Below, piece by piece: positions 6,524 through 41,884 of a stretch of DNA of 46,487 nt. The first letter of the stretch is position 1, and each line of letters opens with the position of its first letter. Both the position numbers and the translations under genes were made by a program. Below the pieces are notes generated by a model. That model saw only the letters and a program-made list of their open reading frames with translations. It made no database searches and was not told the origin of the DNA. The DNA comes from a virus: positions 1 to 46,487 of IMG/VR virus record IMGVR_UViG_3300006802_000155; one strand, written 5' to 3'.

Positions 6524-6553
6524 ATGCACAACCCAAGATTCACAAGTCACTCC

Positions 6554-6997
6554 TCACATCGGGTTCACACGTGAGAGTGCGAAGCTTCGTGCGTGGTCAG
6601 GGTAGTTACGTTCACCGCCGTAGCAGTCGATCCATTGCACGCCGTTGTGGTTCGTCACCATACGTACGAATACGAACACGCCATCTTCACCCTGAACTGT
6701 GAAGCGTGATTGCGATGCGAGACCCATGTATTCGTACGCGATCGTCCACGTCGGATGCGCCTCTTCATAGAGCTTGAGGTTTCGCTCTTTGAACGCACCA
6801 GGCGTATGCCCTGCATCAGTCTTCGTGTTCGGATTGATGAGCAGGTCAAGTGCCTTGTGGATCTTCTCTTCAGCCGCTTTGTCGCGGGAGCCGCGCCCAG
6901 CTTCGATCGACGCCACTGCACCCACAGTCACGCCTGCGAGATCAGCGATCTCTTGACGTGACATACCTAGTGCTTTGCGGTTCACTTCGTAGTCCAT
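6554..6997 (-). CDS. XRE-type helix-turn-helix protein
   Basis: The 147-residue protein opens with a helix-turn-helix of the Cro/XRE kind (MSRQEIADLAGVTVGAVASI then EAGRG). It continues with a domain having many aromatic residues (WTIAYEYMG, GVFVFVRMV, WIDCYGGERN) that may sense a ligand or form dimers. It is probably a phage regulator. The ATG at 6997 is chosen with GAGGA nine bases upstream; a GTG six bases earlier would leave no room for the ribosome site. It overlaps the stop of the small acidic gene, and this is the only junction in the array without a ribozyme. Confidence 0.75.
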   Translation of the reverse strand: MDYEVNRKALGMSRQEIADLAGVTVGAVASIEAGRGSRDKAAEEKIHKALDLLINPNTKTDAGHTPGAFKERNLKLYEEAHPTWTIAYEYMGLASQSRFTVQGEDGVFVFVRMVTNHNGVQWIDCYGGERNYPDHARSFALSRVNPM

Positions 6998-6999
6998 TG

Positions 7000-7140
7000 T
7001 CACACATCCTCATCGTCGTAGTAATCGTCGTACGGGCTGTCGTTGTACTCCGGCTCATAGTAACTTTCGTCACTCCAGCCGATGACCTCACCCGCATCGT
7101 TACGGTAGATGGTGCTGTGAGCTGTTGGGAACATGCTCAT
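7000..7140 (-). CDS. 46-aa very acidic small protein
   Basis: This short gene follows ribozyme 1. AAGGAGG (7149-7155) lies eight bases before the ATG at 7140. The C-terminal half is almost all Asp, Glu and Tyr (NDSPYDDYYDDED), giving a DNA-like negative surface. Small acidic phage proteins of this type often mimic DNA or bind host proteins, but nothing shows this here. Its stop overlaps the HTH gene start by a few bases, so the two should stay on one mRNA after ribozyme cleavage. Confidence 0.7.
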   Translation of the reverse strand: MSMFPTAHSTIYRNDAGEVIGWSDESYYEPEYNDSPYDDYYDDEDV

Positions 7141-7163: not shown

Positions 7164-7235
7164 TGACTCTTCAGAGCGTAGGCGGTCACCCTACACTGAC
7201 GAGCACTCGTCTTGTGACGAGTACTCGTTTCGTCA
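7164..7235 (-). ncRNA. Hammerhead ribozyme 1 (type II)
   Basis: The core reads GAAA, UC and CUGAAGA, a permitted CUGANGA variant. Stem II has 4 bp, stem III 12 bp with an ACAA loop, and stem I 8 bp with loop GUGACCG. Cleavage is predicted between 7198 and 7197. Loop I UGACC can pair with GGUCA just 3' of stem II. The element starts two bases after the stop of the DUF6011 gene and ends ahead of the SD of the 46-aa gene. Confidence 0.88.
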
Positions 7236-7237
7236 TA

Positions 7238-7738
7238 TCAGTACGTGATCTTGTTCACACACTCTGGGCCGTATCCTTGATTCACAGACGCGGGCACAGT
7301 GAGCTTACGACCGCAGCGTCGACAGCGAGACGCTTTAAGCGCGTAAGCCATGCCCGTTTCATCAGGGTCGCGATGCAGGACTTCAAGCGCATGCGCGAGA
7401 CGCCCGTTGTCTTTGAACCGCTTCCAGATCGACCACTTATGTGTACTGGACTGGATGAACGCGAAGCCCGTGTAATCCCTTTCGTTATCAGGGCCGGACA
7501 AGTAGTCCACAACACGCCAGCCGCGTTGGCCGTTGTCTGGGTTCCAGTGATCACGAACGCGCAGTGTGATTCGATCATCATCGGCTTCGTTGAAGACGAT
7601 GGTGTAGAACCCGTTAGGAACGCGTGCGTGCACTGCGTGTGTGTCGTCGTTCGCGGTGAGCGATATGCCGTAGCACTCTTTCACCGCAGTGACGCTTGCG
7701 TGGGTCTCTTTGCACGACCCACATATGATGCTTGACAT
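7238..7738 (-). CDS. DUF6011-type Cys-rich protein
   Basis: The 166-residue protein has an N-terminal CGSC...AVKEC motif and a C-terminal CRRCGRKLTVPASVNQGYGP followed by EC, the pattern of the DUF6011 zinc-binding domain common in actinophages. The middle (about 35-120) has alternating beta strands (YTIVFNEADDDRITLRVRD, FAFIQSS) and may be a substrate- or protein-binding module. The function is unknown. The ATG at 7738 follows AAGGAGGACAC. Ribozymes flank the gene on both sides, so its mRNA should be released alone. Confidence 0.75.
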   Translation of the reverse strand: MSSIICGSCKETHASVTAVKECYGISLTANDDTHAVHARVPNGFYTIVFNEADDDRITLRVRDHWNPDNGQRGWRVVDYLSGPDNERDYTGFAFIQSSTHKWSIWKRFKDNGRLAHALEVLHRDPDETGMAYALKASRCRRCGRKLTVPASVNQGYGPECVNKITY

Positions 7739-7760
7739 GTGTCCTCCTTCGATTACACCT

Positions 7761-7829
7761 AGCTCATCAGCCCGAGGTCGGTGAACTCCTCGAGGACGTC
7801 GCCACTCAAGTGAGTGACGACGTTTCGCT
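7761..7829 (-). ncRNA. Hammerhead ribozyme 2 (type II)
   Basis: GAAA, UC and CUGAUGA are all present. Stem II is 3 bp, stem III 11 bp with an ACUU loop, and stem I 7 bp with a 10-base loop. Cleavage falls between 7795 and 7794. Loop I CACC can pair with GGUG 3' of stem II. The last A of the upstream UAA stop is the first base of stem II. Confidence 0.9.
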
Positions 7830-8212
7830 TACTTGTCTTCGCTCGTGTTGACCCAGTCAGCGATCGTTGCCCATTGGTGTCGCTGACGACGGGTCAGCTT
7901 CTTACGTGGGCAGAGGATCACTTTGCCGCATTCATCGTGTGTGAAACGCGGCAGTGTGAAGAAGTCTGGGTACGAGACGTCCAACGTGGCGTGCACTGGT
8001 ACTTGTGCACCGTCGATCGACACAAGAACAACGCATCGCACCACGTCAACATCCACAAGATGATTGTGGATGACGGTGTGCAACCCGGTCGGTTTCACTT
8101 TGTGCGAGAACGCTTGTGACAGCGTTCGACCGTAACGGGCGTCCTTTGCGCGACGGTTCAACCAGAACAAGTAGTCCGTCGTGATCAACGTGAATGTGTC
8201 CATGCTTGGCAT
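7829..8212 (-). CDS. Unknown 127-aa protein in ribozyme array
   Basis: I recognise no family. The protein begins MPSMDTFTLITTDYLFWLNR and ends with a basic helix (PRKKLTRRQRHQWATIADW). In between is a beta-rich section (VIHNHLVDVDVVRCVVLVSI) with scattered His and Cys. It may bind nucleic acid through the basic end. AAGGAGG sits four bases before the ATG at 8212; a second ATG at 8203 is also possible. The UAA stop runs directly into ribozyme 2, and ribozyme 3 precedes it. Confidence 0.65.
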   Translation of the reverse strand: MPSMDTFTLITTDYLFWLNRRAKDARYGRTLSQAFSHKVKPTGLHTVIHNHLVDVDVVRCVVLVSIDGAQVPVHATLDVSYPDFFTLPRFTHDECGKVILCPRKKLTRRQRHQWATIADWVNTSEDK

Positions 8213-8236
8213 GGGTCCTCCTTCTATGTCGTAGCT

Positions 8237-8310
8237 GGCTCATCAGCACCAGATTGCTAGGCCTGGTGGACGGTCTGCAAGCACTTTAGATGCTCGCAAA
8301 CCGTTTCGCC
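8237..8310 (-). ncRNA. Hammerhead ribozyme 3 (type II)
   Basis: The core is complete (GAAA, UC, CUGAUGA). Stem II is 3 bp, stem III 13 bp with two G-U pairs and a 7-base loop, and stem I 6 bp with loop GCCUAGCAAU. Cleavage is between 8269 and 8268. Loop I UAGC can pair with GCUA in the 3' flank. It has the longest gap to the upstream stop in the array, 15 bases. Confidence 0.9.
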
Positions 8311-8325
8311 GCAGGTATTGCTTGC

Positions 8326-8763
8326 TCAATCAGAATGTCGAACGCAGCGCCATTCTGGAGCACGCTTGCCAACGTGCACACGCTCAAGTACACCTTGCTT
8401 GTGCAAGCGGTAGATGCTCAAGTACGCCAAGCTGCCTGGCATCTTGAGCATGCTTGCAACTTTGTCACGTGAAGCTGTCTCGTCGGCAGCAAGCTCGCCA
8501 AACAGAGCGCGCACTTGCTGATCACGATCTGTCACAGCAGCACGTCGTGCTTCTCCCAAGTTCGAACCGCTGTTCGTCTGCTCGTTGAGCTTGAAGAACG
8601 GGCCGTCCTTGATGACCTTCGATTCACGGCACAGGCGGTCCATCAGCTTACGTGTTGACGTCTCGCTGAGGTTGGCCGCTGTCTTCAAGACAGTGACCTT
8701 GCTTGGGCCGTGAATGAGCAGATGCTCAAGCACTTGCACTTCAGGGATAGGTGATGTGCTCAT
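8326..8763 (-). CDS. Putative winged-helix DNA-binding protein
   Basis: The 145-residue protein looks like two winged-helix units in a row. The first is about residues 5-58 (VLEHLLIHGPSKVTVL, TSTRKLMDRLCRESKVIK, then FFKL). The second is about 85-140 (VRALFGELAADETASRDKVA, SIYRLHKQGVLERV). This pattern suits a small regulator, perhaps of phage or host promoters. The ATG at 8763 is preceded by AAGGAGG at 8771-8777. Ribozymes 3 and 4 flank it. Family assignment rests on pattern only. Confidence 0.6.
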   Translation of the reverse strand: MSTSPIPEVQVLEHLLIHGPSKVTVLKTAANLSETSTRKLMDRLCRESKVIKDGPFFKLNEQTNSGSNLGEARRAAVTDRDQQVRALFGELAADETASRDKVASMLKMPGSLAYLSIYRLHKQGVLERVHVGKRAPEWRCVRHSD

Positions 8764-8788
8764 GTGATGTCCTCCTTCATTGTCGCCT

Positions 8789-8848
8789 GTCTCGTCAGGC
8801 AGGGTAGGCGAGTGATTCCCTGCGACCCGACTCTCGTCGGGTTTCGAC
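8789..8848 (-). ncRNA. Hammerhead ribozyme 4 (type II)
   Basis: The core has GAAA, UC and CUGACGA. Stem II is 3 bp, stem III 6 bp capped by a GAGA tetraloop, and stem I 6 bp with a 13-base loop. Cleavage is between 8824 and 8823. Loop I UCGCCU pairs perfectly with AGGCGA 3' of stem II (6 bp). The ribozyme begins at the base directly after the upstream UGA. Confidence 0.92.
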
Positions 8849-9106
8849 TCAGTCCTTGGTGGGCGGTTGCGGCACGTACGTCACAGCGTGACGATGGCCG
8901 ATCATCTCGTTCATCTTCGCGTGCTTGGCGCAGAACGGACGCACCTCAACGGTTGCGTGCGTGCTGCCCAACATCGCGATGCTGATGACAGTGGCCGGAT
9001 CGCTGCACGACCCCCAGTCGCACTTCGCTTGAATGCCGAGACCGTCGGGGTCAGCAAGGAACCACGTCGACGACGACGGGTTCGTTGGTGCCTTCATTGA
9101 ACGCAT
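8849..9106 (-). CDS. 85-aa protein with Cys/His zinc-like motif
   Basis: The ATG at 9106 is set by AAGGAGG close upstream; the longer open frame only reads through ribozyme 5. The protein has CDWGSC around residue 29 and FCAKHAKM around residue 58, a Cys4/Cys-His layout suited to a zinc site. Between them is a hydrophobic strand (ATVISIAML). It resembles small actinophage proteins of unknown role. Ribozymes lie directly on both sides. Confidence 0.65.
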   Translation of the reverse strand: MRSMKAPTNPSSSTWFLADPDGLGIQAKCDWGSCSDPATVISIAMLGSTHATVEVRPFCAKHAKMNEMIGHRHAVTYVPQPPTKD

Positions 9107-9127
9107 TGTATGTCCTCCTTCGATAGC

Positions 9128-9202
9128 TTGACTCGTCAGTGATTGGGTAGCTAGCCCAACCAGACGTTCCGCACGTCTAGGACGTGCAGAACGTTTCGTC
9201 AA
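9128..9202 (-). ncRNA. Hammerhead ribozyme 5 (type II)
   Basis: GAAA, UC and CUGACGA form the core. Stem II can reach 5 bp, stem III is 12 bp with a CCUAG loop, and stem I is 8 bp with loop CUAGCUA. Cleavage is between 9163 and 9162. Loop I UAGCU pairs with AGCUA overlapping the end of stem II. The UGA stop of the DUF2786 gene is inside the 5' strand of stem II. Confidence 0.92.
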
Positions 9203-9930
9203 CGGCCCAGAGCACCGCGCGTACCGCTACCGACTCGGGAGTTCCCGATGTCAGCGCGGTTCGCCGCCGCTCGACCTGCTTGTGCACCTGCCATGTCGGA
9301 CCGCTGCGCACCTCCACGTGCTTTGCCGATGTGGAAGTTCTGAGCCATGTGGTCCTTCACAGCGTCCTTCTTGCTGACGAGCGCCGGCAAGAGGTCCTGA
9401 CCTGTGGCATCCTTCACTTCCTTGATGTTCAAGTCACGCTGCTCTTTGAGCCGAGCACCGATACGCCAAGCGAACTCTTGGATGAACGATCGGCGGAAGT
9501 AGTAGTCGCCGCCACTGGCCTTCGACTCTCGTTGCGCTTCACGCTGTGCAAACAGCGTCAGCGACGTGACGAGCAGTTGAACCGTCGTCACGTCAGACTC
9601 GTAGCCAGTGAGGACCACTTTGCAGTTGCTCCCGTGCTTCGACTGCAAGACGATGCAGTCGTTCGAACGAGCAACTTGATCCCACAAGTGGATGAGTGCG
9701 GCGAAGTAGGTCGATGGAATCGACACGCGGATGGTCACGATCTTGTCGTCAAGTTGCTTGCCGCTGATCTTGAGCATCTGCTCGTCAATCGCCCACTTCG
9801 TCATCAGTGCTTGAGCCTTCGCGAAGAACGCTTCAGACTCCTCGGGCGTGCAGCCTTTGTCCTCTGCCTTGCTCAGCAGTGCGGTGATCTTGCTGATCAT
9901 GGCTTCACGCTTGTCACTGTTCTCTGTCAT
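9199..9930 (-). CDS. DUF2786 domain protein
   Basis: The N-terminal 45 residues match DUF2786 (ISKITALLSKAEDKGCTPEE, then AFFAKAQALMTKWAID). This short helical domain is found in many bacterial and phage proteins, sometimes in putative proteases or defence-linked proteins. The middle continues as an alpha/beta domain with TGYESDVTTVQLLVTSL, common to the DUF2786-DUF7168 pairing. The tail (from about 205) is rich in Gly, Ala and Arg and likely disordered. The function is unknown. The UGA stop lies in stem II of ribozyme 5, and ribozyme 6 precedes the gene. Confidence 0.8.
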   Translation of the reverse strand: MTENSDKREAMISKITALLSKAEDKGCTPEESEAFFAKAQALMTKWAIDEQMLKISGKQLDDKIVTIRVSIPSTYFAALIHLWDQVARSNDCIVLQSKHGSNCKVVLTGYESDVTTVQLLVTSLTLFAQREAQRESKASGGDYYFRRSFIQEFAWRIGARLKEQRDLNIKEVKDATGQDLLPALVSKKDAVKDHMAQNFHIGKARGGAQRSDMAGAQAGRAAANRADIGNSRVGSGTRGALGR

Positions 9931-9954
9931 GTGTCCTCCTTCAAAGAATCGCCT

Positions 9955-10012
9955 GTCTCATCAGCGACGGGTGGCGAAGTCCGTCGGACCCAGCAAGTGG
10001 CTGGGTTTCGAC
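9955..10012 (-). ncRNA. Hammerhead ribozyme 6 (type II)
   Basis: The 58-base element has GAAA, UC and CUGAUGA. Stem II is 3 bp, stem III a 6 bp GC-rich hairpin with a CACUU loop, and stem I 6 bp with a 10-base loop. Cleavage is between 9987 and 9986. Loop I UCGCC pairs with GGCGA in the 3' flank. The upstream UAG stop ends one base before the element. Confidence 0.93.
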
Positions 10013-10013
10013 T

Positions 10014-10217
10014 CTAGTGCCCGTACGTGCACATCGTGCATTTACGCAAGTAGTGGTGGCCAGCCCAGTGCAATGCGGTGCGCGTGGCTTCTTCCCACAT
10101 GACCTTGCACACAAGCTGTGTGATGTGTGGCACCCGATGGTCGGTGCTTAGCGGATACGCGATAAGCGCGAACAGCATAAGCGATTCGATCGGGATGTCA
10201 ATAGATGCATCTTGCAT
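10014..10217 (-). CDS. Unknown 67-aa protein in ribozyme array
   Basis: The ATG at 10217 follows AAGGAGG at 10223-10229. The small protein starts with a helical, acidic/hydrophobic part (IPIESLMLFALIAYPLS) and ends with a His/Cys cluster (HWAGHHYLRKCTMCTYGH), which could bind a metal. No family is recognised. It is isolated on its own predicted mRNA between ribozymes 6 and 7. Confidence 0.6.
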   Translation of the reverse strand: MQDASIDIPIESLMLFALIAYPLSTDHRVPHITQLVCKVMWEEATRTALHWAGHHYLRKCTMCTYGH

Positions 10218-10236
10218 CGTGTCCTCCTTCATTGAC

Positions 10237-10306
10237 CTGACTCATCAGCACAGGGTGGTCATATCCTGTGGACGTGGCCGAGTGACCTCGGCGCACGTTT
10301 CGTCAG
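10237..10306 (-). ncRNA. Hammerhead ribozyme 7 (type II)
   Basis: GAAA, UC and CUGAUGA are present. Stem II is 5 bp (CUGAC/GUCAG), stem III about 10 bp with one bulged C, and stem I 6 bp with loop AUAUGACCAC. Cleavage is between 10271 and 10270. Loop I UGACC pairs with GGUCA beginning in the last base of stem II. Four bases separate it from the upstream UGA. Confidence 0.92.
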
Positions 10307-10310
10307 TGCA

Positions 10311-10604
10311 TCAGTCGGCGCAGTACCGCTCGAGCATGTCGGCGACTTCCGCCAGCATCTTGCGGTCCGCGTCACTCAACCCGGACGGCCCGGTGAACGG
10401 ATGTGCGAGCAATCGAACATGGGTTGCGATCATCGCGACCTGCTGCGTCGGGCAAGCTTCTTCGTGGTGGGTCTGACGACTCACAGTGAAGTACTTCTTG
10501 CCGCTGACACGGTCCTCGGTGAGGTACCCAGGAACGAAGTACTGCACCGCACCGCACTCGGAGCAGCTCTCGCCGGTCGGGTTGTGGTTGGGATCGTTGT
10601 TCAT
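10311..10604 (-). CDS. 97-aa protein with CxxC motif
   Basis: The ATG at 10604 follows AAGGAGGACAACGTC. The N-terminus is Asn/Pro-rich, then CSECGAVQYF gives a CxxC pair. A second Cys near EEACPTQQ could complete a metal site with the His residues of QTHHEEAC. The C-terminal third is a helix (DADRKMLAEVADMLERYC). No family is known to me. Ribozymes 7 and 8 flank the gene. Confidence 0.6.
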   Translation of the reverse strand: MNNDPNHNPTGESCSECGAVQYFVPGYLTEDRVSGKKYFTVSRQTHHEEACPTQQVAMIATHVRLLAHPFTGPSGLSDADRKMLAEVADMLERYCAD

Positions 10605-10629
10605 GACGTTGTCCTCCTTCGATATGGCT

Positions 10630-10702
10630 TGACTCATCAGCGGGGTAGTTGCCAACTACCCCGGACAGCAGGTGCACTAGAAGTGCACCTGCCGTTTCGT
10701 CA
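10630..10702 (-). ncRNA. Hammerhead ribozyme 8 (type II)
   Basis: The core is GAAA, UC, CUGAUGA. Stem II has 4 bp, stem III 11 bp with a 7-base loop, and stem I at least 8 bp, up to 10 with a GGC loop. Cleavage is between 10664 and 10663. Loop I UGGC can pair with GCCA in the 3' flank, the weakest of the loop contacts. The upstream UGA is part of stem II. Confidence 0.9.
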
Positions 10703-10969
10703 GCGTGTAACGTACAGCACGTATTGCTTGGGTCGTGGCTGATTCGCAGCCGCGTACACACGAAGACAGCGGAACACCCGAGGATCGCGGTCCTCAGTGA
10801 CGCCGGCGAACTCGACAGCGTCGTCCCACTTGTAGTCGAAATACTTGACTTCACCTTCATCGTTCATGGCGTAGACCGTGCCAAGCATGCACTCCCAGAT
10901 TGCTGGGCGATGCTTAAGCGTCGGCTTCATCTTACGACCCAGGCGAAATGGATGCGTCGACTTGTTCAT
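10700..10969 (-). CDS. Unknown 89-aa basic/beta protein
   Basis: The ATG at 10969 is preceded by AAGGAGG; the longer frame upstream only translates ribozyme 9. The protein has a basic N-terminus (HPFRLGRKMKPTLKHRP), then short strands (WECMLGTVYAMNDEGEVKYF) and an arginine-rich end (RDPRVFRCLRVYAAA). This composition could suit RNA or DNA binding. I recognise no family. Its stop UGA is embedded in stem II of ribozyme 8. Confidence 0.6.
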   Translation of the reverse strand: MNKSTHPFRLGRKMKPTLKHRPAIWECMLGTVYAMNDEGEVKYFDYKWDDAVEFAGVTEDRDPRVFRCLRVYAAANQPRPKQYVLYVTR

Positions 10970-10990
10970 GATGTCCTCCTTCGATATGGC

Positions 10991-11049
10991 CTGACTCATC
11001 AGCGTTGGGTGGCCATTCCCAACGGACGGCCCGAAGGCCGTTTCGTCAG
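10991..11049 (-). ncRNA. Hammerhead ribozyme 9 (type II)
   Basis: This 59-base copy is the clearest. Stem II is 5 bp (CUGAC/GUCAG) and stem III a 5 bp GC stem with a UUCG tetraloop. Stem I is 7 bp with loop AAUGGCCA; GAAA, UC and CUGAUGA are exact. Cleavage is between 11025 and 11024. Loop I AUGGCC pairs with GGCCAU 3' of stem II. The upstream UGA lies within stem II. Confidence 0.95.
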
Positions 11050-11267
11050 ATGTGCTCGACGATCCAGAGCGCCAGCTCTTGGATGGCGATGGGCAGTGTC
11101 GACCAGTCCTGCGACAGGTCGAAGATTTGCCCGAACGGGTTCGTCAACTGATCGTACCCATCAGCATGGCTGACCAGCGTAAAGCAGCCGCGGTTGTTCG
11201 GACTGGAGATCGTGATGATCGTCATTCCGAGGTTGTCGTTGTCGACGCGGGAGATGATCTCGAACAT
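11046..11267 (-). CDS. Unknown 73-aa protein in ribozyme array
   Basis: The small protein starts MFEIISRVDNDNLGMTIITI and appears beta-rich at first, then ends with an amphipathic helix (PIAIQELALWIVEHI). AAGGAGG at 11276-11282 precedes the ATG at 11267. No family is recognised. The UGA stop overlaps stem II of ribozyme 9 and the gene is preceded by ribozyme 10. Confidence 0.65.
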   Translation of the reverse strand: MFEIISRVDNDNLGMTIITISSPNNRGCFTLVSHADGYDQLTNPFGQIFDLSQDWSTLPIAIQELALWIVEHI

Positions 11268-11292
11268 GGTGTTGTCCTCCTTCGTAGTGGCA

Positions 11293-11350
11293 GACTCATC
11301 AGCGTCGGGATGCCAACCCGACGGACGAGGCCTTGCGGCCTCGTTTCGTC
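11293..11350 (-). ncRNA. Hammerhead ribozyme 10 (type II)
   Basis: GAAA, UC and CUGAUGA are exact. Stem II is 3 bp, stem III 7 bp with a GCAA tetraloop, and stem I 7 bp with loop UUGGCAU. Cleavage is between 11324 and 11323. Loop I UGGCA pairs with UGCCA directly after stem II. The stop UGA of the 228-aa gene overlaps the first bases. Confidence 0.95.
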
Positions 11351-12035
11351 AGTTGTCGATGGCGTTCGGATCGAACGGCAACGACGTGTCCTGCGGCAGT
11401 GCGGCGATGATCTTGTTGAGACGTGCAAGGGCGAAGCGGAAGTTCGCGACTTCATTCATCTCCTTGACGATGTACCGCATGGCGGCACGCTCAGCGTCGT
11501 CGACGAGATTGCTGGAGAGCGAGGTGGAACGCCCCGGCCTCCAGTCAACCAGATCCTCGGTCATGGTGTCGAGGAACTGCGCGATGATCTCGTGGAACTC
11601 ATCGCCTTCCTTGCGGTTCTCGATCAGCCGACCCAGGTACTGAAGCTTGACTTCGACTTGCAGTTCGATCAGCATCGCTTCATTGTCCCAGCTCAGCGTG
11701 CGGAGCATTTCGTTCGTGTTGCCAGTGGCAAGCTTCTCCGCCCACTTGATGCGGGTGGAGCAGGCCATGGCATCCTCGACATAGAGCATGATGCCGTCAG
11801 TGTGGTGGCCGAGATGATCGGCAGCCGCGCTGAGCTTCTCTTGCCAAGTTTGCACTGCACGAACGATGATGACTTCCTTGTCGAGCGACCAGCGGCGCGG
11901 CTTGTCGATGTCGATGAACTTGACATCAGCATTGCGGTTGAGCCGCCTAATCGTTTGAACCGTTCCGATACCTTCGACGGTGTCACCGATCGTAAGATGG
12001 GCAACCGTGGTCGTGGTGTTCATGTGGATAGGCAT
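11349..12035 (-). CDS. Unknown 228-aa helical protein
   Basis: The ATG at 12035 follows AAGGAGG at 12044-12050. The first 55 residues look like a small beta domain (AHLTIGDTVEGIGTVQTI, VKFIDI). The rest is strongly helical and acidic (WQEKLSAAADHLGHHTDG, EAMLIELQVEVKLQYLGRLI, AAMRYIVKEMNEVANF), possibly a helical bundle. No motif points to an enzyme. It is the longest gene in the array apart from the DUF2786 gene. Ribozymes 10 and 11 bound it. Confidence 0.65.
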   Translation of the reverse strand: MPIHMNTTTTVAHLTIGDTVEGIGTVQTIRRLNRNADVKFIDIDKPRRWSLDKEVIIVRAVQTWQEKLSAAADHLGHHTDGIMLYVEDAMACSTRIKWAEKLATGNTNEMLRTLSWDNEAMLIELQVEVKLQYLGRLIENRKEGDEFHEIIAQFLDTMTEDLVDWRPGRSTSLSSNLVDDAERAAMRYIVKEMNEVANFRFALARLNKIIAALPQDTSLPFDPNAIDN

Positions 12036-12059
12036 TGCGTTGTCCTCCTTCGTAGTGGC

Positions 12060-12121
12060 CTGACTCATCAGCACGGGTAGGCCAGATTCCCGTGGACCGG
12101 CCTTGCGGCCGGTTTCGTCAG
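12060..12121 (-). ncRNA. Hammerhead ribozyme 11 (type II)
   Basis: Stem II is 5 bp (CUGAC/GUCAG), stem III 6 bp with a GCAA tetraloop and stem I 6 bp with an 11-base loop. GAAA, UC and CUGAUGA are exact. Cleavage is between 12095 and 12094. Loop I UGGCCU pairs with AGGCCA (6 bp, sharing the last base of stem II). The upstream UGA is inside stem II. Confidence 0.95.
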
Positions 12122-12525
12122 TCGTTGAACACCGACGGCCAGATGCCGTCGATGATGAGCATTGGGTCGGCGAGTGGTCGGGCCACGATCGTTCCGGTGA
12201 TCGTACGGCCATCGGTCAGATCGACTTCGATCTCATCTCCGATTGTGAGGTCACCCTCATACGTGAGGCGAGTGCGTCCGTCGATCACCACCGACTTTGC
12301 TGAGATCAGCACACTGATCTCGTCAGTCGTTGACTTGCCGGATGGATCGATGTATCCGCCGAACCCATCGGGTCGGCCGGTGTTCGACCACACCTCCACG
12401 ACGTGTGGGTGGTGCGGGTTGTGCAATCCTCTGCCGTGCATCCGATACTTACCCGACCTGTACAGCAACCCGTAGTCTTTGCGGAAGCTGGCCGGTGCAT
12501 CGTGAACGGCGATGACGGTAGTCAT
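12118..12525 (-). CDS. Unknown 135-aa beta-rich protein, first gene of array
   Basis: The ATG at 12525 is preceded by AAGGAGG at 12534-12540. The protein has a His/Gly/Arg section (GKYRMHGRGLHNPHHPHVVE) and a C-terminal half made of strands (SVLISAKSVVIDGRTRLTYE, IGDEIEVDLTDGRTITGTIV) that could be a small SH3-like or beta-barrel domain. No family is recognised. As the first gene after the control region it is the only one whose Shine-Dalgarno sequence is paired with an upstream anti-SD across ribozyme 12. Confidence 0.65.
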   Translation of the reverse strand: MTTVIAVHDAPASFRKDYGLLYRSGKYRMHGRGLHNPHHPHVVEVWSNTGRPDGFGGYIDPSGKSTTDEISVLISAKSVVIDGRTRLTYEGDLTIGDEIEVDLTDGRTITGTIVARPLADPMLIIDGIWPSVFND

Positions 12526-12532
12526 TGTGTTG

Positions 12533-12632
12533 TCCTCCTTCGTAGTGCCTATCTCATCAGCACCTGGGCGGCAAGGCCAAGTGTACGAGCAGTGCGGCTT
12601 GCACCGCACCGCTCGTTTCGATTGAAGGAGGA
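12533..12632 (-). promoter_or_regulatory. SD/anti-SD inverted repeat enclosing ribozyme 12
   Basis: The nine bases GAAGGAGGA that form the Shine-Dalgarno sequence of the first array gene (12533-12541) are exactly complementary to UCCUCCUUC in the leader (12624-12632). The two arms bracket ribozyme 12, so they would extend the ribozyme's closing helix and hide the ribosome site in the uncut RNA. Cleavage inside would put the arms on separate fragments. The pairing is seen; control of translation is inference. Confidence 0.55.
12551..12622 (-). ncRNA. Hammerhead ribozyme 12 (type II, leader)
   Basis: GAAA and CUGAUGA are exact; the cleavage triplet is GUA instead of the GUC or CUC-type UC end seen in the others, still within the UH rule. 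Stem II is 3 bp, stem III 12 bp with a 6-base loop and stem I 7 bp with a 9-base loop. Cleavage is between 12584 and 12583. Loop I UGCC can pair with GGCA in the 3' flank. It precedes the first gene, so it would free a leader RNA rather than an mRNA. Confidence 0.88.
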
Positions 12633-12765
12633 GGACTTGTGAATCTTGCGAAGACTGGGTGCCTGGGTCCCAAGAGCAGGTTCAGCTTATCCGCTCAAGG
12701 TTGGGTTCAGCCGGTCTCTGGCTCGCAAGCGAGGTGATCGTCAGCTTAGCCTTCCGGGCGGACTC

Positions 12766-12795
12766 ATTACATCCGCTGCCTTGGGGGCTTCCCAA
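12766..12795 (-). promoter_or_regulatory. Candidate promoter of the ribozyme array
   Basis: On the minus strand TTGGGA (12790-12795) and TGTAAT (12766-12771) are 18 bp apart. Transcription would begin near 12759, leaving a leader of about 175 bases before the cleavage site of ribozyme 12. The -35 is poor, so this is only the best candidate I can see. Confidence 0.3.
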
Positions 12796-12878
12796 TCTTC
12801 TAGGTTGTCAAGGATCAGTGCCAGCGTCCAACTTGGGGGCCGTATTTGGACTACCCCGGACCGGCTATGTCGATGTTG

Positions 12879-12893
12879 CGTGACGTGGTCACG
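12879..12893. promoter_or_regulatory. Palindromic operator-like site CGTGAC-N3-GTCACG
   Basis: Six-base arms separated by GTG make a 15 bp dyad typical of dimeric regulator sites. It lies about 85 bp upstream of the candidate array promoter. Confidence 0.4.
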
Positions 12894-12936
12894 TTATCTC
12901 GGGTTTGGGCAGTTTGACAACCTCAGTGTTCGAAAG

Positions 12937-12965
12937 CACACGTTTATCGTGCGAAATGACGTGTG
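12937..12965. promoter_or_regulatory. Inverted repeat CACACGT-N15-ACGTGTG
   Basis: Two perfect 7-base arms are separated by 15 bases. The spacing of about two helical turns between arm centres suits binding of a dimer, or the sequence could form a hairpin in RNA. Confidence 0.4.
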
Positions 12966-13002
12966 ACACAGTGCATCTACCAGGAGCTTTCTCCCATTTA
13001 TC

Positions 13003-13019
13003 AAGATTCGATCAATCTT
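13003..13019. promoter_or_regulatory. Dyad AAGATT-N5-AATCTT
   Basis: This 17 bp site has six-base arms around CGATC and stands in a short AT-rich stretch. It resembles a repressor or initiator half-site pair. The XRE and winged-helix proteins encoded nearby are possible binders. Confidence 0.4.
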
Positions 13020-13127
13020 TCTGAATGTGACGAGTTTCGCGCCCAAATGGCACGCGCTCTTCACATCACAGGGAGACGCTTGTGGGCGTGGAACCGTGGG
13101 CTCGACTGACGAGTCGAATGACGACGA

Positions 13128-41837: not shown

Positions 41838-41884
41838 GCCGCCTAAGAGAAGCAGAGAGGAGGAGCCTGCTTCTCTTAGGCGGC
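41838..41884 (-). terminator. Perfect 18-bp hairpin after major capsid gene
   Basis: Arms 41838-41855 and 41867-41884 pair without a mismatch around an 11-base loop (GCUCCUCCUCU in RNA). It starts 10 bases after the capsid stop and has no U tract. It may partly stop transcription or protect the capsid mRNA 3' end. The loop has a CCUCC run complementary to Shine-Dalgarno sequences, including that of the next gene. Confidence 0.75.

Follow-up and report, generated by a model that had tools for sequence, protein, structure and literature searches.

How does a phage express a long run of small genes when a self-cleaving RNA motif appears to stand in front of nearly every one of them? The question is raised by the IMG/VR virus record IMGVR_UViG_3300006802_000155, whose 46,487 bases were analysed in full and are called the window throughout. 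Genes for a tape measure, tail and capsid mark the window as that of a siphophage, and its minus strand carries a run of small genes, all co-oriented, from 12,525 down to 6,554. Between 7164 and 12622 this run contains twelve predicted type II hammerhead ribozymes; one lies in the leader, and each of the other eleven occupies a junction within a series of twelve consecutive cistrons. Our reading, to which we assign a probability of roughly 85% on the strength of sequence analysis, is that the operon is transcribed as one RNA, which would cleave itself in the leader and at all eleven junctions, giving single-gene messenger RNAs (mRNAs).

The twelve elements were located with a strict descriptor, which consists of GAAA, stem III, UH, stem I, CUGANGA and a stem II of at least 3 base pairs (bp). 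Exactly 12 type II motifs are found in the whole window, all of them on the minus strand and one before each of the first twelve genes, while 20 dinucleotide-preserving shuffles of the window yield 0. The Rfam model for this class, RF02276, is less sensitive: four of the twelve copies exceed its gathering score and eight are found at E<1e-4 (one genome), so that the gathering threshold by itself leaves 8/12 copies unconfirmed. The same threshold misses most phage copies elsewhere, giving an above-score match in only 7 of 35 records that have descriptor matches. Since RF02276 recovers only part of the set at either level, we built a second covariance model (R1) from 37 hammerheads in eleven other phage records, none of them from the window. 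Against the window, R1 returns exactly twelve matches at the predicted places, with E between 1.5e-16 and 4.9e-5, and no others up to E=10. An initial annotation of this stretch had named twelve hammerheads, at the leader and eleven junctions, and had proposed a covariance search as a check; the count holds under the descriptor and under R1, and is reached in part by RF02276. The elements are as follows.

12551-12622, minus strand: hammerhead 1 (leader); predicted cut 12584/12583, after UA, leaving a 58-nucleotide (nt) 5' untranslated region (UTR) for gene 1; R1 E 4.9e-5
12060-12121, minus strand: hammerhead 2; predicted cut 12095/12094
11293-11350, minus strand: hammerhead 3; predicted cut 11324/11323
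10990-11050, minus strand: hammerhead 4; predicted cut 11025/11024; 6-bp pseudoknot AUGGCC x GGCCAU
10630-10702, minus strand: hammerhead 5; predicted cut 10664/10663
10237-10306, minus strand: hammerhead 6; predicted cut 10271/10270
9955-10012, minus strand: hammerhead 7; predicted cut 9987/9986
9128-9202, minus strand: hammerhead 8; predicted cut 9163/9162
8789-8848, minus strand: hammerhead 9; predicted cut 8824/8823
8237-8310, minus strand: hammerhead 10; predicted cut 8269/8268
7761-7829, minus strand: hammerhead 11; predicted cut 7795/7794
7164-7235, minus strand: hammerhead 12; predicted cut 7198/7197

A plain CTGANGA...GAAA pattern, in the order of types I and III, gave 4 matches where 3.3 are expected; these are chance matches and were discarded, and the pattern is no test of the present motifs because it has the motif order of the other permutations.

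All twelve copies have the conserved core (CUGANGA, GAAA and UH) in the permuted type II order, and all have the three core helices, with stems I and III closed, stem II open, and covarying pairs. In stems I and III every tested position is paired, whereas swapped strands are paired at 53-58% of positions; both stems covary. In the majority of natural type II hammerheads loop I pairs with the tail that follows stem II, and this pseudoknot is needed for fast cleavage (PMC3088659). Although neither the descriptor nor R1 requires this pseudoknot, it can be formed in 12/12 window copies with 3-6 Watson-Crick bp, as for example in UGACC x GGUCA and UCGCCU x AGGCGA. Each loop is matched to its own tail: the mean is 4.83 Watson-Crick bp, compared with 3.3 when the partners are permuted, and 0 of 20000 permutations are as good. 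The window copies thereby match RF02276 in core, permutation, cleavage-site rule and pseudoknot, and differ from it in that several have a longer stem III and only four pass the cut-off. The identification of the twelve elements as type II hammerheads is supported by the independent covariance model, the covarying stems and the covarying pseudoknot. The predicted cut falls after UC in eleven copies and after UA in the leader copy, which corrects the wording of the initial annotation.

The placement of the copies relative to the genes is nearly constant. From predicted cut to start codon there are 53-60 nt in all twelve cases, and from cut to Shine-Dalgarno (SD) core 43-48 nt, again in all twelve. 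The motif had been described as always lying between a stop codon and the next SD sequence. One copy does precede each of the twelve genes, but it does not strictly follow the stop: in six of the eleven junctions the 5' strand of stem II shares nucleotides with the stop codon of the preceding gene, and in two more it abuts that codon. This overlap lends some weight to a different reading, in which the elements act mainly on translation or stability, as hairpin leaders or as switches of SD accessibility, and self-cleavage is secondary or regulated, e.g. by ribosomes on the overlapping stop or by a complement of the SD (anti-SD) found at the leader:

12624-12632, minus strand: anti-SD UCCUCCUUC, a perfect 9-nt complement of the gene 1 SD GAAGGAGGA near 12532-12541 (minus strand), directly 5' of the leader ribozyme

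The same arrangement with another sequence (UCCCUCCAA x UUGGAGGGA) occurs at the first ribozyme of a 13-copy array in record G002 (locus L124, about 1640) and in its relative G009. The eleven internal copies of the window have no anti-SD, however, and every copy retains a catalytic core that a plain hairpin would not need; we therefore think it unlikely that translation or stability is the main role. As a general rule, an anti-SD at leader copies as opposed to internal ones was rejected, since the difference is not significant across all arrays and the observation concerns two array families only. Cleavage would place the anti-SD and the SD on separate molecules, though temporary pairing is possible.

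Under self-cleavage, which we prefer, expression of the operon would proceed in the following way. Each junction is a cassette in the order stop codon, type II hammerhead, SD sequence and start codon. The ribozyme would fold shortly behind the passing RNA polymerase, its fold held by pseudoknot pairing of loop I with the nucleotides that immediately precede the SD sequence, and would cut itself after UC, or after UA in the leader. The upstream piece would then end in the stem III hairpin with a 2',3'-cyclic phosphate, and the downstream piece would open with the completely paired stem I hairpin, bearing a 5'-OH, so that every gene would acquire a standard leader of uniform length. The expected products are those foreseen in the initial annotation: eleven mRNAs of one gene each and a twelfth that spans genes 12 and 13, because these two overlap by 4 nt without a ribozyme. 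The benefit may be that translation becomes uncoupled and that the hairpin-guarded ends resist end-dependent host RNases. RiboJ-type ribozyme insulators, known from synthetic biology, likewise use a hammerhead in the 5' UTR to give a defined 5'-OH hairpin leader. RiboJ was engineered from a satellite-virus hammerhead and is used once per construct, whereas the window copies are natural, of type II, and present at each junction.

The same end chemistry would also allow a different outcome, in which a host ligase of the RtcB type, or the ribozyme reaction run in reverse, closes the pieces, whether mRNAs or regulators, into circles. Retrozyme and viroid circles arise from such ends (reviewed in PMC7761336), and the layout that circularization requires, two flanking hammerheads, is present. 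Yet clustered hammerheads gave no spliced or circular products when Perreault et al. looked for them (PMC3088659), no phage RNA ligase occurs among those window proteins that were scanned (part of the set), and the geometry of SD and start codon favours translation of linear pieces. Circular RNAs are consequently, in our estimation, very unlikely to be what these ribozymes are for.

The initial annotation had suggested a search of related phage contigs, and the layout does recur. Pattern scans of IMG/VR found at least 120 stretches for one stem II variant, and two more variants likewise give lower bounds. Among the matches listed, at least three hammerheads lie on one strand in 57 of 338 loci, and at least five in 19 of 338. 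Besides the window, ten phage records carry arrays of 6-13 copies: G002 has 13; G015 has 10; G003, G007 and G009 have 9 each; G014 and L120 have 8 each; G005 has 7; and G006 and G011 have 6 each. In a set of 242 hammerheads from outside the window's family, 164 (68%) have a stop codon just upstream and an SD with a start codon just downstream, and 6.8% of positions drawn at random from the same strand do so. In these hammerheads of other phages the stop most commonly lies 6-7 nt ahead of GAAA.

Comparison of proteins relates G002, G009 and G015 to one another and places G006, G010 and G016 in a second group; the window has mainly distant replication genes in common with these groups, and almost no operon genes. 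Within the groups a hammerhead is kept before a helicase gene, a gene of about 190 codons and a DUF932 gene, despite a protein identity of only 45-70% and rewritten stems. The core is thus kept at orthologous junctions while the flanks drift, in answer to the test that the initial annotation had set itself. In the more distant relatives G003 and Dryad there is no hammerhead at the helicase, and others stand elsewhere.

These comparisons bear on whether the hammerheads are passenger or selfish modules, useless to the phage and tolerated at gene junctions. Some arrays (G011 and L134/L140) do contain mutually similar copies, so copying between junctions happens. In the window, on the other hand, pairwise identity among copies is only 53-75% (median 61%), stem changes are compensatory, the core is intact in 12/12 and the distance to the SD is nearly fixed; at orthologous junctions, moreover, the motif is retained across large divergence. 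We regard the passenger explanation as extremely unlikely, the least credible of those considered here, and the earlier claim that the copies are selected and are not recent duplicates is supported by the divergence within the window and the retention among relatives. The arrays L134 (a Phycicoccus jejuensis contig) and L140 (a Streptomyces iakyrus contig) are in fact the same three-hammerhead stretch, with proteins 100% identical, and the two actinobacterial species belong to one culture collection; their sameness may reflect recent transfer or shared contamination. They are the two triples among 40 genome stretches with prophages of named bacteria, which otherwise mostly show single matches.

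From the covariation, structure and geometry of the copies, together with their recurrence and their retention at orthologous junctions, we infer cleavage in vivo, single-gene mRNAs and a benefit to the phage. Several observations weigh against this interpretation. The lowest-scoring copy is the leader hammerhead, with UA at its cut, and minimum-energy folding, which is blind to pseudoknots, gives the canonical three-stem fold in only some of the twelve. A near-identical contig (L009/L131; 99.9% identity over 14.4 kb) has no ribozyme substitution; this identity shows no constraint, because only about one ribozyme substitution would be expected. Finally, a consensus scan located no promoter, so that co-transcription of all the operon genes is deduced from their layout.

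The idea of such processing is not new. Perreault et al. (2011) described clustered prophage hammerheads flanking single phage genes and proposed that long phage RNAs are processed into operon- or gene-length mRNAs; the tandem hammerheads of A. tumefaciens, A. caulinodans and C. scindens gave the expected cleavage in vitro, and the A. tumefaciens set did so in E. coli as well (PMC3088659). The window resembles these clusters in that its twelve minus-strand copies, one per junction, flank single genes. The clusters tested in 2011 have few copies, as in the A. tumefaciens triple around ardA, while in the window every junction of a twelve-cistron run, and the leader, carries a uniform cassette of stop, ribozyme and SD. 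In the haloarchaeal phages HF1 and HF2, a leader hammerhead also lies a short distance ahead of the gene that opens an early operon, and a mapped transcript 5' end is at most 3 nt from the cut (PMC3088659); unlike the window, HF1/HF2 have a single core-variant copy, in the leader only. The claim in the initial annotation that no comparable operon had been described was accordingly too strong: hammerhead clusters with the same processing idea have been known since 2011, many phages carry such arrays, and full punctuation is an extreme form of them. In the open-licence PMC literature we found no later paper on full junction punctuation or its spread, which, given partial coverage, is weak evidence of novelty.

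A 2017 review (PMC6155905) describes the role of natural hammerheads in prokaryotes as an open question. An operon with a ribozyme at all of its junctions, and the return of that layout in phage after phage, suggest that RNA by itself processes the mRNAs systematically. Whether ribozyme punctuation is a widespread, conserved expression strategy of phages is to our minds an even bet. Such a strategy would turn whole operons into mRNAs of one gene each, which share a standard leader and have ends that are made by RNA and guarded by hairpins; it would need no host processing RNases, and would include some leader ribozymes gated by an anti-SD, with cleavage separating the anti-SD from the first gene.

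A megablast search of the window against isolated phages gives no match. Four isolated Streptomyces phages carry arrays of 4-9 copies, and R1 has matches in all four: Dryad (7 matches), Wentworth (6), Yara (8 strong and 1 weak) and phiRKBJ001 (6). The question is therefore approachable in laboratory infection. R1 has no match in nine other actinobacterial phages. Of 15 strong matches in Yara and Dryad, 13 lie wholly within annotated intergenic gaps, 12-17 nt before the next start. For the remaining two the annotated start is probably too far upstream: the coding sequences Yara 57763-58014 and Dryad 53917-54048 have annotated 5' parts that run into hammerheads.

The genes of the operon are mostly without family matches. 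At the array junctions the gaps are occupied by ribozyme and SD; the phage's other neighbouring genes often overlap by 4 nt.

12118-12525, minus strand: gene 1, 135 amino acids (aa), no family match
11349-12035, minus strand: gene 2, 228 aa, weakly matches phrog_36273, whose function is unknown
11046-11267, minus strand: gene 3, 73 aa, no match
10700-10969, minus strand: gene 4, 89 aa, no match
10311-10604, minus strand: gene 5, 97 aa, no match
10014-10217, minus strand: gene 6, 67 aa, no match
9199-9930, minus strand: gene 7, 243 aa, DUF2786 and DUF7168, phrog_421
8849-9106, minus strand: gene 8, 85 aa, no match
8326-8763, minus strand: gene 9, 145 aa, winged-helix-like (TrmB E 1.4e-5, slightly below the TrmB cut-off)
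7829-8212, minus strand: gene 10, 127 aa, no match
7238-7738, minus strand: gene 11, 166 aa, C-terminal DUF6011
7000-7140, minus strand: gene 12, 46 aa, no match
6554-7003, minus strand: gene 13, 149 aa, HTH_3 and DUF7246; 4-nt overlap with gene 12, without an intervening ribozyme

Two further features lie at the ends of this operon. A perfect 15-nt inverted repeat (CAAGATTCACAAGTC / GACTTGTGAATCTTG; 6534-6548 and 12634-12648) stands just past the gene 13 stop and just upstream of the leader ribozyme, and through it one end of the operon transcript could pair with the other. By chance a genome should hold a few pairs of this kind, though not at these particular sites. The region that precedes the leader ribozyme (12626-13110, minus strand; about 500 nt) has no convincing genes and folds more stably than its shuffles on the minus strand (z -3.3, 0/100 shuffles), less so on the plus strand (z -1.8), with no Rfam match and no relative found. 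It may be a structured RNA, in which case cleavage by the leader ribozyme would generate its 3' end.

Elsewhere the window contains genes for a Prim-Pol, DNA polymerase A, a helicase and thymidylate synthase. Twister-sister and microRNA matches in Rfam are below threshold and were rejected. The weak Rfam listing of 41838-41884 as a microRNA is a chance match; that segment is a perfect 18-bp hairpin with an 11-nt loop, which adjoins a capsid gene and is perhaps a terminator or insulator.

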